Shown piece after piece: positions 13,867 to 17,202 of a stretch of 33,921 nt of DNA. The stretch spans positions 1 to 33,921 of the forward strand of contig JAUXAN010000027.1 in the NCBI GenBank assembly GCA_030619885.1, read 5' to 3'. The position numbers were made by a program, and so were the translations under genes. Positions within the stretch are counted from its first letter, which is position 1; the number at the start of each line of letters is the position of its first letter. The stretch comes from a bacterium. Lineage in GTDB: Bacteria; Hydrothermota; DG-26; JAUXAN01. Under the pieces are notes generated by a model. It was given only the letters and a program-made list of their open reading frames with translations. It was not told where the DNA came from and made no database searches.

Positions 13867-13875
13867 ATTATCTTG

Positions 13876-14463
13876 ATGAAGGTAGCCCTTGCGACTAAGA
13901 ATAAGGACAAGATAGTAGAGATAAAGGAGATATTAAAAGGGCTGAATCTGACATATTTTACCTTCTATGATTCTTCAGATATTCCTGATGTAGTAGAGGA
14001 TGGACTAACTTTAAGGGAAAACGCAGAGAAAAAAGCAAGGCACTGCGTTAACTATACGAACTGCATTTCTATCGCTGATGACACCGGATTGGAGGTTGAC
14101 ATCCTCAAAGGGAAACCAGGGGTTCGTTCTTCCAGATTTGCTGGTGAAGATGCGACTTATGCCGACAATAACAAGAAACTTCTATCTATGCTAAAAGGTA
14201 TTTCCAAAGAAAAGAGAACTGCTACTTTCAGATGTGTAGCAGCTTTGGTCTATCCATCAGGCAAGGAAGTAACCTTCGAAGGTTCAATATCTGGATACAT
14301 AGGATACGAGCCGAAAGGAGAAGCTGGATTCGGATATGACCCTCTGTTTGTGGTCAGACAATACGGAAAGACGCTTGCTGAATTGGGCAGTGTAAAAAAT
14401 AAGATCTCTCACAGGGCAAAGGCATTCTTGAAACTGAAGAGATATATAAAAAAAGAGATATAA
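13876..14463 (+). CDS. rdgB: XTP/dITP diphosphatase (non-canonical purine NTPase)
   Basis: 195 residues. It hydrolyses dITP, XTP and ITP to monophosphates, keeping deaminated purines out of nucleic acids. MKVALATKNKDKIVEIKEIL at the N-terminus, IADDTGLEVDILKGKPGVRSSRFAGEDA and GEAGFGYDPLF are the family's substrate and metal-binding segments. The length is standard. The ATG at 13876 is preferred over the TTG at 13873; no ribosome site is evident, so it may rely on coupling with the SPOR gene ending 9 bases upstream. A tRNA-like fragment begins only 3 bases after its stop. Confidence 0.93.
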   Translation: MKVALATKNKDKIVEIKEILKGLNLTYFTFYDSSDIPDVVEDGLTLRENAEKKARHCVNYTNCISIADDTGLEVDILKGKPGVRSSRFAGEDATYADNNKKLLSMLKGISKEKRTATFRCVAALVYPSGKEVTFEGSISGYIGYEPKGEAGFGYDPLFVVRQYGKTLAELGSVKNKISHRAKAFLKLKRYIKKEI

Positions 14464-14465
14464 AA

Positions 14466-14519
14466 CGAGGTGTAGCGCAGTGGTTTAGGGAGCAGGAGGT
14501 CGTCCGTACGGATCACCCC
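14466..14519 (+). pseudogene. tRNA-Pro-like fragment, copy 1 (deleted anticodon arm, replaced T-arm)
   Basis: The first 23 bases match the intact tRNA-Pro at 14895 at all but one position. The copy then skips the 5' half of the anticodon arm, keeps GGAGCAGGAGGTC, and has GTCCGTACGGAT (14502-14513) where the T-arm should be, followed by CACCCC. It cannot fold as a tRNA. The palindrome CCGTACGG belongs to the dispersed family described elsewhere in this window. Confidence 0.8.
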
Positions 14520-14536
14520 AATGAAGTGCTGTTACA

Positions 14537-14782
14537 ATGTCATATTATGTATATGTAATCAGGAGTCTTAAAGACGGGCGGTTGTATGTCGGACAGACTA
14601 CAAACTTGAAGGCGAGACTGAAGAGACATAATGAAGGCAAAGTTCAGTCTACGAAGAATAAAGGACCCTTTGAGATAGAATATTTTGAGAAATATGAGAC
14701 TCGTGGGGAAGCAATGAAGCGAGAACGATATTTAAAATCGCCAAAAAGGGAAAGTAAAGAAACGAGAGTCAATAAAGAATAA
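14537..14782 (+). CDS. GIY-YIG nuclease-family protein
   Basis: 81 residues. It is a small GIY-YIG domain: YYVYVIRS (GIY strand), GRLYVGQT (YIG strand), R27 and R30 in the following helix, and E63 in AMKRERYLK as the likely metal-binding glutamate. Stand-alone proteins of this size (UPF0213/YhbQ type) are common, and some sit next to RNA genes. This one lies between two damaged tRNA-Pro-like copies, just before the intact tRNA-Pro, and its start codon falls in a short block (14520-14540) repeated after copy 2 (14856-14876). No ribosome site is visible. A homing-like or site-specific nicking role at the tRNA gene is an attractive inference but not shown. Confidence 0.75.
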   Translation: MSYYVYVIRSLKDGRLYVGQTTNLKARLKRHNEGKVQSTKNKGPFEIEYFEKYETRGEAMKRERYLKSPKRESKETRVNKE

Positions 14783-14784
14783 GA

Positions 14785-14855
14785 CGGGGTGTAGCGCAGT
14801 GGTTTAGCGTCCGTATGGACCTTGGGAGCAGGAGGTCGTCCGTACGGATTACCCC
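14785..14855 (+). pseudogene. tRNA-Pro-like fragment, copy 2 (palindromes in the D/anticodon region and T-arm)
   Basis: It begins with 25 bases identical to the intact tRNA-Pro. GTCCGTATGGAC (14809-14820) then occupies the start of the anticodon stem, CTTGGGAGCAGGAGGTC is retained with the TGG anticodon, and GTCCGTACGGAT (14838-14849) replaces the T-arm. It starts 3 bases after the GIY-YIG stop. The bases after it (14856-14876) resemble those after copy 1, so the two copies are related to each other as well as to the functional tRNA. Confidence 0.8.
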
Positions 14856-14894
14856 AATGAAATGTTATCATAATGTGAGATAAAGATTAGGAAA

Positions 14895-14971
14895 CGGGGT
14901 GTAGCGCAGTGGTTTAGCGCGCCTGCCTTGGGAGCAGGAGGTCGGTGGTTCAAATCCACTCACCCCGACCA
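14895..14971 (+). tRNA. tRNA-Pro (TGG)
   Basis: A complete 77-base cloverleaf with encoded CCA. The acceptor stem is CGGGGTG with CACCCCG, the anticodon stem is CCTGC/GCAGG, the loop is CTTGGGA and the anticodon is TGG at 14929-14931. The T-arm is GGTGG-TTCAAAT-CCACT. It is the only intact member of the local tRNA-Pro-like set and the likely landmark for the insertions on both sides. Confidence 0.97.
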
Positions 14972-15117: not shown

Positions 15118-15216
15118 ATGGGATTGAAAAAACACATGCACGCCAAAAGTAGATGGCAGAATAGTAGCCAAACCGGAATAAAAATAAATAAAGGAGTTAG
15201 AGATCATGCCAATTAG
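15118..15216 (+). CDS. Possible 32-residue leader peptide overlapping the ATPase start
   Basis: An open frame with an AGGAGAGAGGA purine tract just before its ATG. It encodes a basic, His/Lys-rich peptide (starts MGLKKHMHAKSRWQ). It ends 10 bases inside the ATPase gene in a different frame, an arrangement that would couple their translation. No family recognised; it may be chance. Confidence 0.3.
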   Translation: MGLKKHMHAKSRWQNSSQTGIKINKGVRDHAN

Positions 15217-16726
15217 AAGAAGAACATTTGAAGGAAGGAAGGAAGGAAGAAGAGAAATTGAATTGAAAATTGAGGTAAAGAATTTTGGCCCGATAAGCAG
15301 TGGTAAGATAACACTTAAACCTCTCACACTATTTATTGGCCCTAACAACTCAGGAAAATCGTATGCTGCGATGCTAGTTCACTCCATATTTGAGTCTTAT
15401 GCCCCGATTACTTTACCCAGACGGGCACCCTTCTTTATGAGGGGACGTTTTTTTGCCAAACATCTTGATATTCGTACTTTTCTCAAAGAATTCCCTGAGC
15501 TGAAAAGGCAAATCGACGATTTAAAAGAAGGAAGGGAACTAGAGATTCCAAAACAAGTTATAGAAAAAGTAACCAACATGATTTTTGGAGAGATATATGA
15601 AAAAAGATTAAGTGATGAAGTTGTTCGTTCATATGCTTGCCCACTCAACGAATTAATCAGGATTGGGAAAAAATCATTTGTACTAAAAATTAATTTTAAT
15701 TCCTATAGTACTCATTTGACATACCAAAAAGATAAGTTAAAGATCAAAGAGTATCCACAATTGAATATCAAGATAAGAATCAAAGTAATCGACTTGCCTC
15801 GTCCTACAATTGAAATAAAGGAGAAGGAAAAGGAGGTTTTGATTGAGATAGGTGGGTGGAGAGAGAAAGAAGAGAAAAGGTTTATGTCTATCCGATTAAT
15901 GGACATAATTTTCGAGGTATGTGTCTCTAAAATATTGGAAAATGTAGCGATGCCATGTTACTATCTTCCTGCTGCAAGGTCTGGTATACTTCAAGGTCAT
16001 AAAGCGCTTGCTGCGAGTATAGTAAAAAAAGCCCCATATGTAGGTATAGAAAAGCTAGAAATCCCAAAGTTCTCTGGGGTTGTATCTGATTTTATTTCCT
16101 CTGTTATTACCTTACCTGAAGAGAAAGGTCCCTTTTATCAGCTCGCTCAGAACTTTGAAAAAAAACTGATTAAAGGAGAGATTGTAGTCCGAACTTTAGA
16201 TGAGTATCTTTATCCGGAAATTAAATATAATTTTCAGAATACTGAGATTCCATTGCATAGAGCTTCTTCAACTGTTTCTGAATTAGCGCCGCTATTTCTT
16301 TATTTAAAGTATAGTATTGCACCTGGGAGCATTTTAATAATAGAAGAACCAGAAGCTCATTTACATCCAGAAAATCAGCGAATTTTAGCAAAGCTTTTGG
16401 TCAAATTAATAAGAAAGGGTGTCAACATAACAATTACAACTCATAGCGAGTACTTATTAGAGCAATTGAGCACTTTCATTCTGCTTAGCAAAGTTGAGCC
16501 AAAAAATCGCGTAGAGAGGTATAAATATAGCAAAGAAGATTTCTTAAAGCCCGATGAAATCGCTGCTTATGTGTTTGATTATGACAAAAGGAGTGCCGGA
16601 CACAGAATAACCGAAGTTGAAATAACAGAAGAAGATGGGATTTCGCAAGAAGAATTCATCAATATTCATGAAGCTCTTTATGAAGAAACAATTAAACTTC
16701 GAAGAGACTTAAGCGCCGAGACATAA
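15206..16726 (+). CDS. AAA/OLD-like ATPase, candidate defence-module ATPase
   Basis: 506 residues. An SMC/OLD-type ABC ATPase domain: KIEVKNFGPISSGKITLKPLTL leads to the P-loop GPNNSGKS (45-52). SSTVSELAPLFLYLKY near 352-366 is signature-like, ILIIEEPEAHLHPENQ (about 375-390) is the Walker B, and TTHSEYLLEQL (about 409-419) carries the switch histidine. The middle (100-330) is a variable insertion with no fold I recognise. There is no C-terminal TOPRIM domain as in OLD or GajA. GGAG 9 bases before the ATG supports the start. The PD-(D/E)XK-like gene follows directly. ATPases of this type paired with a small nuclease occur in several antiphage systems (Septu, PARIS, AbiL-type), but this pairing matches none I can name. 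Confidence 0.75.
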   Translation: MPIRRRTFEGRKEGRREIELKIEVKNFGPISSGKITLKPLTLFIGPNNSGKSYAAMLVHSIFESYAPITLPRRAPFFMRGRFFAKHLDIRTFLKEFPELKRQIDDLKEGRELEIPKQVIEKVTNMIFGEIYEKRLSDEVVRSYACPLNELIRIGKKSFVLKINFNSYSTHLTYQKDKLKIKEYPQLNIKIRIKVIDLPRPTIEIKEKEKEVLIEIGGWREKEEKRFMSIRLMDIIFEVCVSKILENVAMPCYYLPAARSGILQGHKALAASIVKKAPYVGIEKLEIPKFSGVVSDFISSVITLPEEKGPFYQLAQNFEKKLIKGEIVVRTLDEYLYPEIKYNFQNTEIPLHRASSTVSELAPLFLYLKYSIAPGSILIIEEPEAHLHPENQRILAKLLVKLIRKGVNITITTHSEYLLEQLSTFILLSKVEPKNRVERYKYSKEDFLKPDEIAAYVFDYDKRSAGHRITEVEITEEDGISQEEFINIHEALYEETIKLRRDLSAET

Positions 16727-16743
16727 ATATGGAGAGACTTTTT

Positions 16744-17202
16744 ATGCCAGTTATAAACTGTATCAAAAGCAATTTTACTAATGCGATAATAGCGCGTTGT
16801 TCTGAGATGGGCTGTAGATTGAGACTCAATGGTTTGAGTAACTATGTCATATTGAAAGGTGAAAGAATTTGTGAAGATCGTAGAATATGTGACTGTATTA
16901 TTTTTACTAGAGATAACTGTATGATTATTGGTATCGTAGAATTAAAAAGTAAAACTATACATTCAAATCAAATTATAGAAAAACTTACTAATGGGTCAAA
17001 AATTGCGTTAGATATTTTGGAAGAGTGTAGTGATAACGGCATGAATTTTGAATTTTATCACCTCGTTTTGTGCAAAAGGTGGCATTCATCTGAATACAGG
17101 GTAATAATTAGTAAAAAAATCATAGTCGGAGGAAAAAGATACGACATCATACCTAAAAGATGTGGAGTTTCTTTCTCTGCGGTAATATCTGGTTTAAAAT
17201 AG
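16744..17202 (+). CDS. Small PD-(D/E)XK-like protein, partner of the ATPase
   Basis: 152 residues from the ATG at 16744, which has GGAGAG 7 bases upstream; an ATG at 16729 adds 5 residues without a ribosome site. I see a putative nuclease core: D50 in ICDCIIFTRD, then IIGIVELKSK with E66 and K68, the spacing of a PD-(D/E)XK catalytic site on adjacent strands. No known family is recognised by name. It is cysteine-rich (seven scattered cysteines), without a clear zinc motif. It follows the ATPase by 17 bases and is surely co-transcribed. The pair would fit a sensor ATPase controlling a nuclease effector; a DNA target is likely from the fold but unproven. Confidence 0.55.
   Translation: MPVINCIKSNFTNAIIARCSEMGCRLRLNGLSNYVILKGERICEDRRICDCIIFTRDNCMIIGIVELKSKTIHSNQIIEKLTNGSKIALDILEECSDNGMNFEFYHLVLCKRWHSSEYRVIISKKIIVGGKRYDIIPKRCGVSFSAVISGLK

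Follow-up and report, generated by a model that had tools for sequence, protein, structure and literature searches.

A stand-alone GIY-YIG nuclease gene among damaged tRNA-Pro copies, a probable member of a widespread element family anchored at tRNA genes

In a bacterial contig, analysed here over its full 33,921 nucleotides as one window, a gene for an 81-residue stand-alone GIY-YIG nuclease is embedded in an array of tRNA-Pro copies. On the same strand, and in this order, lie the RdgB gene, a damaged tRNA-Pro copy (copy 1), the nuclease gene, a second damaged copy (copy 2) and an intact tRNA-Pro(TGG) gene. We consider it probable that the array belongs to a family of free-standing GIY-YIG elements of homing type, widespread and anchored at tRNA genes. 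It is best read as a homing-like element tied to a tRNA, homing itself being the step that we infer.

All features of the array are on the plus strand. Its upstream host neighbour is the RdgB/Ham1 (XTP pyrophosphatase) gene at 13873–14463 (Pfam PF01725, 1.1e-59), which also precedes tRNA-Pro in a relative with an empty site (locus L183, see below). Copy 1 (14466–14519), recognised by alignment to the intact tRNA and not called as a tRNA, retains the acceptor strands and lacks 13 nt of the D/anticodon region, while its T-arm has given way to the palindrome TCCGTACGGA (14503–14512). It is followed by a leader block (14520–14540) that includes the start codon of the nuclease gene (14537–14782), the product of which certainly belongs to the GIY-YIG superfamily (PF01541, 9.2e-20) and has its conserved columns intact, namely those of the catalytic Tyr, Tyr, Arg and His and of the metal-binding Glu. 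Copy 2 (14785–14855), identified by alignment to the intact tRNA and by its fold, carries two palindromes: GTCCGTATGGAC (14809–14820), which replaces GCGCCTGC between the D and anticodon arms, and again TCCGTACGGA in the place of the T-arm (14839–14848). Its acceptor stem is still paired in the predicted fold. A second leader block (14856–14876), a copy of the first within a direct repeat of 80% identity, leads to the intact tRNA-Pro(TGG) at 14895–14971, where the T-arm swapped for TCCGTACGGA in both damaged copies reads GTGGTTCAAATCCAC.

Much of this had been proposed by a first-pass annotation, which described three tRNA-Pro units in one orientation, a shared palindrome in the T-arm place of the first two, an additional sequence in the anticodon region of copy 2, and related blocks after the copies with the start codon inside the first; all of these are borne out, as is the expectation that only the last unit is intact, which alone is accepted in a tRNA scan of the region (ARAGORN, and Rfam RF00005 with 71.7 bits). 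A feature absent from that annotation is that the 13-nt deletion in copy 1 falls at the same place, the D/anticodon junction, as GTCCGTATGGAC in copy 2. The annotation had further taken the array for a repeatedly inserted unit of tRNA, leader and nuclease gene. That the unit is tied to a tRNA and spares one working copy is supported by an empty site, by recurrence of the layout at many tRNA genes and by tandem arrays of tRNA-like sequence with GIY-YIG genes. Copy 2, however, repeats nothing of the unit beyond its tRNA, leader and start codon. The repeat (14488–14558 versus 14824–14894) is 80% identical, and as the reading frame starts within the first block and an equivalent ATG is present in the second, the duplicated unit comprises the tRNA, the leader and the beginning of the nuclease gene. 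The second block looks like the start of a second unit from which the body of the reading frame is absent, since its ATG stands directly before TGA; the window array has a single ORF body.

Within the window, GTCCGTACGGAC has 6 matches with up to 2 mismatches, where 0.22 are expected, and 3 of the 6 lie inside the array. Throughout the 2.46-Mb window genome, TCCGTACGGA is confined to 7 sites and DNA resembling copy 1 has no other occurrence. No group I intron match was obtained in the window at Rfam gathering thresholds, so that the reading frame, situated between tRNA copies, qualifies as free-standing. Terminal inverted repeats are not present at the window locus, where the longest match is the 10-nt TCCGTACGGA palindrome itself. 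Just 3' of the tRNA, at 15206–17202 (plus strand), an AAA_15/AAA_21 (OLD- or AbiEii-like) ATPase gene is directly followed by a 157-aa ORF of unknown family, and the two are possibly a defence pair.

A relative without the unit was found, as the first-pass annotation had suggested should be sought. In a genome of the same class and another family (G002, locus L183), RdgB is followed after about 130 bp by one intact tRNA-Pro(TGG), the two being ordered and oriented as in the window, and the fetched sequence has neither the nuclease gene nor extra tRNA copies. Occupied and empty alleles of one locus are thus at hand, from a single relative at the level of the class. Given the layout of L183, it is plausible that the lone tRNA-Pro came first and that the array was added later in the lineage of the window; since window and empty site belong to different families of the class, the time of insertion is imprecise. 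In a further genome (G001) the tRNA is absent from the fetched flank of RdgB, which is therefore of no use as an empty site.

The nuclease appears to be kept active by natural selection, judging from dN/dS values of 0.05–0.37 (13 pairs giving usable values) and from near-invariant catalytic columns, with Y17, G19, R27, H31 and E63 retained in 159–163 of 163 relatives. By profile similarity the protein falls with UPF0213/COG2827, the nearest solved structures being 1ZG2 (3e-17) and 1YWL (1e-13) (UPF0213) and Slx1 (3e-9). No DNA-binding domain is evident in its 81 residues, and the best NCBIfam match is a group I intron endonuclease model, scored under the cut-off of that model. A phage origin was considered and not adopted, as phage and plasmid matches are weak (<50% identical) and three IMG/VR loci have no tRNA.

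The association with tRNA genes recurs far beyond the window. When 147 WOR-3 genomes were searched, 48 had a match at E ≤ 1e-8, in about 90 places, and a scan of named genomes with a profile from a 4-sequence alignment gave, among its 80 best loci, members from WOR-3, Patescibacteria, Bacteroidota, Zixibacteria, Ignavibacteria, Margulisbacteria, Nitrospirota and others. The set analysed comprises 163 related loci from WOR-3 and about 15 other phyla, with one hit counted per locus. A tRNA or tmRNA gene lies within 500 bp of the nuclease gene at 84 of the 163 (42/84 in WOR-3, 42/79 in other genomes), a fraction that describes this subfamily rather than all GIY-YIG proteins because the loci were picked by similarity to the window nuclease. 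At 65 of these 84 the distance is at most 150 bp, and at all 84 the RNA gene is on the same strand as the nuclease. Chance proximity would be expected at about 2–5% of loci (about 2% in the window genome, with 46 tRNA genes in 2.46 Mb), and even at a conservative 5% the probability of the observed figure is near 1e-32.

The first-pass annotation was right that the window unit is anchored at tRNA-Pro, but this is no restriction in the family, as relatives use most tRNA isotypes, tmRNA and the RNase P RNA gene (rnpB). The window genome itself has two further relatives, one of them 161 bp from a same-strand tRNA-Asn. Nuclease relatives also border tmRNA genes (L041, L044, L066, L083, L137, L160 and L162), and L041 contains a 55-nt duplicate of the tmRNA 3' end. 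Between two genomes of one genus (G052:C1:42748-44548 and G053:C4:44810-46701; loci L191, L193, L195 and L202), a module of tRNA-Asp and GIY-YIG gene is inverted within collinear flanks. Group I intron matches were seen close to GIY-YIG relatives at L057, L063, L079, L080, L088 and L091, for which reason the subfamily may include intron-borne members.

Partial tRNAs beside GIY-YIG genes, which the first-pass annotation had likewise suggested looking for, occur at many tRNA genes. In the typical case an incomplete copy of the tRNA, one arm of which carries a perfect palindrome, abuts the nuclease gene, and the intact tRNA comes before or after. Alignments to the intact tRNA reveal one form in which the 5' part of the tRNA with its hairpin precedes the nuclease and the intact tRNA follows, and a mirror form in which the intact tRNA and the nuclease are followed by the 3' part of the tRNA with a hairpin. 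The duplicated stretch often takes in 6–13 nt of leader or trailer (e.g. L021, L043, L103, L121, L060 and L138), and tandem nuclease arrays are found at L023, L044/L098, L045, L051, L063 and L069. A perfect stem of at least 7 bp is present in or at 48 of 95 copies, compared with 6.4% of random segments of the same loci; for stems of at least 6 bp the figures are 65/95 and 15.6%.

Of the junctions listed by hand from the stem output, 18 are in the D region, 19 in the anticodon region and 9 in the variable/T region, so that the loss of a single fixed cut site does not account for all palindromes. They could be lesions that remove the cut site, independent repeats that settle in debris or, by analogy, hairpins that tune expression; in T4, hairpins at ribosome-binding sites serve several homing endonucleases (PMC2988022). 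Pure D-loop insertions of an identical CCTGCCTGCCGGCAGGCAGG were observed in WOR-3, Parcubacteria and Daviesbacteria (L056, L081, L141 and L165), and CCTGCCTGCCGGCAGGCAGG is also found in copies from Flavobacteriaceae (L118, L153). It occurs in 8 of the 147 WOR-3 genomes, three of which (G002, G143 and G146) have no GIY-YIG match. We did not adopt the idea that the palindrome is a genome-wide REP family tied to the nuclease, in view of this distribution and of the few sites of TCCGTACGGA. Two distant loci of the window genome, L010 and L011 (G000:C32 and C40), have in common a long repeat ending in GTGCATTCCGTACGGATCCAGAGATAGGTCGATTTTTCTTGAC, which is probably another dispersed repeat family of that genome.

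Protein phylogeny indicates that nuclease lineages hold to one target RNA across phyla. On a tree of the 163 sequences the label of the target RNA changes 46 times, compared with a mean of 74 and a minimum of 67 for shuffled labels, although single branches are weak because the alignment has about 70 columns. The nearest neighbour from another phylum has the same target in 19 of 95 cases, where a null model in which labels were shuffled within phyla only gave a mean of 6.3 and a maximum of 12. Examples of shared targets are Pro (WOR-3, Bacteroidota), rnpB (WOR-3, Parcubacteria), Glu (Margulisbacteria, Saganbacteria) and Ser (Zixibacteria, Nitrospirota).

The third copy in the window genome is located within a class A RNase P RNA gene (L015:4395-5039; G000:C36), the single one that was found in this genome. 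The 5' strands of P1, P2 and P3 (GGATGGAGGAGATC, GGTGATC and CCCCGCACATAAGTTGCC) come before the reading frame and their partner strands after it, which places the ORF in the P3 loop of rnpB. At this locus the reading frame is stop-free in the loop and continues into the RNA gene, and the palindrome of the rnpB element is seen again in a 3' hairpin of the same RNA. Inverted repeats of at least 11 bp closely surround the ORF at 5/5 rnpB loci and at 30/68 loci with no recognised RNA, compared with 0.7% for mismatched flanks; at RNA-linked loci they are found at 8/77 tRNA and 0/7 tmRNA loci. The repeats form recognisable sets, such as ACCCCGTTAGAGATA, ACCCCGTGAGATA, ACCCTGTTAAATAA and CCCCGCACCTT. 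At locus L094 (G101:C31; reverse complement, 289 and 867) an element of full length (259 bp) and an 86-bp derivative, which has the same ends but an internal deletion, are about 300 bp apart. Elsewhere in the window genome the rnpB palindrome stands alone at 5 sites, where a control pattern gave 0. One of these, at L189 around the palindrome CCGCACATAAATTTATGTGCGG, is nested in another hairpin: the loop of one palindrome holds a second, and a perfect stem of 24 bp results.

Such observations could also be accommodated by a structure-specific nuclease of the Slx1/UPF0213 kind, belonging to a palindrome-bounded mini-transposon that enters hairpin-forming DNA. We regard this as unlikely, and the same holds for its detailed version, in which the element would enter the arms of tRNA genes, the P3 loop of rnpB and further palindromes, the active form would be bounded by terminal inverted repeats, and solo palindromes would be what internal deletion leaves behind. 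The structural relatives of the protein, the inverted repeats at rnpB and at loci without an RNA, the pair of elements at L094, and the solo rnpB palindromes with their nested case at L189 are what such a transposon would lead one to expect; but terminal repeats are scarce at tRNA loci and missing at tmRNA loci, the dispersed palindrome is present in WOR-3 genomes that have no GIY-YIG match, and a pure preference for structure accounts neither for the target fidelity of lineages nor for the universal placement on the same strand.

Passive hitchhiking would mean that tRNA loci are tolerant and well-transcribed landing spots, that the gene was duplicated with the tRNAs by ordinary recombination, and that the palindromes are generic repeats in debris. 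Duplicated tRNA segments are indeed natural substrates for recombination, and palindromes such as CCTGCCTGCCGGCAGGCAGG are dispersed in some genomes even where a GIY-YIG match is lacking. We nevertheless judge hitchhiking very improbable, as it has difficulty with target fidelity across phyla, with purifying selection on a protein with intact catalytic residues, and with the same strand at every linked locus. An artefact of metagenome assembly at a repeated tRNA can be practically dismissed: the window is an entire contig of a draft genome in 86 contigs, but the same anatomy is found in independent assemblies, including records labelled Zunongwangia pacifica (L118) and Mesonia oceanica (L153) and one labelled as a chromosome (CP070839.1; L112, L115), and the copies differ by substitutions and replaced arms, as is not expected from exact collapse or expansion.

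For the preferred reading, a homing-type element anchored at tRNA genes, we infer the following process. Where a tRNA gene of the type that it targets is unoccupied, the small nuclease would cut it, and repair from an occupied copy, or between tRNA repeats, would then install the nuclease gene with a duplicated piece of tRNA and flank. The host would be unharmed, as a full tRNA remains beside the gene, and the surplus tRNA pieces would be free to decay, with an arm in most of them replaced or filled by a palindrome that may also remove the cut site. Repeated rounds could lead to tandem arrays like that in the window, where, by analogy with phage SegB (see below), an empty tRNA-Pro gene would be cleaved and the unit brought in by repair, one full tRNA being kept. 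Against homing stand the lack of an evident DNA-binding domain in the protein and the fact that the intact tRNA beside the gene should be a target as well.

More tentatively, and with somewhat less than even confidence, we suggest that the loci together represent an unrecognised class of mobile elements of about 0.3 kb dedicated to structured-RNA genes. One branch would home to tRNA and tmRNA genes and duplicate its target, and a sister branch with inverted repeats would occupy RNase P RNA loops and shed deletion derivatives that become dispersed palindromes, both using a GIY-YIG nuclease of 80 aa that stands alone. The elements commonly associated with essential RNA genes are large and restore the 3' end by means of an integrase. 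In the present case, tRNA, tmRNA and RNase P RNA genes of many phyla appear to be occupied by no more than a nuclease gene of 80 aa, the target depending on the lineage. Should this be confirmed, it would be a simple, testable selfish element that accounts for some of the tRNA debris and hairpin repeats seen in genomes of candidate phyla, and nature would thereby offer compact nucleases directed at a variety of RNA genes.

Among known systems, REP/RAYT and Rickettsia palindromic elements are short dispersed palindromes reported in genes including RNA genes, and REPs are paired with a tyrosine transposase. Membership of REP/RAYT was rejected, as the window nuclease is a GIY-YIG protein and not a Y1 tyrosine transposase, and the small number of TCCGTACGGA sites argues likewise. 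The closest structures by profile, UPF0213/COG2827 (YazA, YhbQ) and Slx1, are small proteins of about 80–100 aa; we know of no characterised member of UPF0213/COG2827 that is tRNA-anchored, and its neighbour in the Bacillus records retrieved is a gene for a tRNA1(Val) methyltransferase. The GIY-YIG endonucleases of group I introns of the I-TevI type are comparable in that some relatives of the window nuclease are near such introns, but in the window the host RNA is preserved by duplication and not by splicing.

No earlier description of the layout was found in a full-text search of the open-access literature. The first-pass annotation, to which no described element of this kind was known, had overlooked segB of phage T4, which is a free-standing GIY-YIG gene separated by 5 bp and by 41 bp from tRNA genes on its own strand (PMC2988022). 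SegB of phages T4 and T6 is the nearest experimentally described system, and the likeness is one of layout and inferred action, not of sequence. Orthology was rejected, since BLASTP aligned a single pair, at E 0.005 and with 29% identity across 80 gapped residues, phmmer detected none of the 163 relatives, and beyond the GIY-YIG motif the proteins are not recognisably related. SegB has 221 aa and is a phage protein, whereas the window protein has 81 aa and is chromosomal, and partial tRNA copies bearing palindromes are not annotated in the SegB region. SegB cleaves within tRNA genes and causes tRNA and segB to be amplified in tandem (PMC13096335); according to the title of Brok-Volchanskaya 2008, cited in PMC2988022, it promotes inheritance of the tRNA region. 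Its reported motif, RAWTSGAAC (PMC13096335), would correspond to the reverse complement of the T-loop consensus, the T-arm being the arm lost in copies 1 and 2 of the window. Our data suggest that the tRNA-region habit of SegB in T4 and T6 has a broad chromosomal counterpart.
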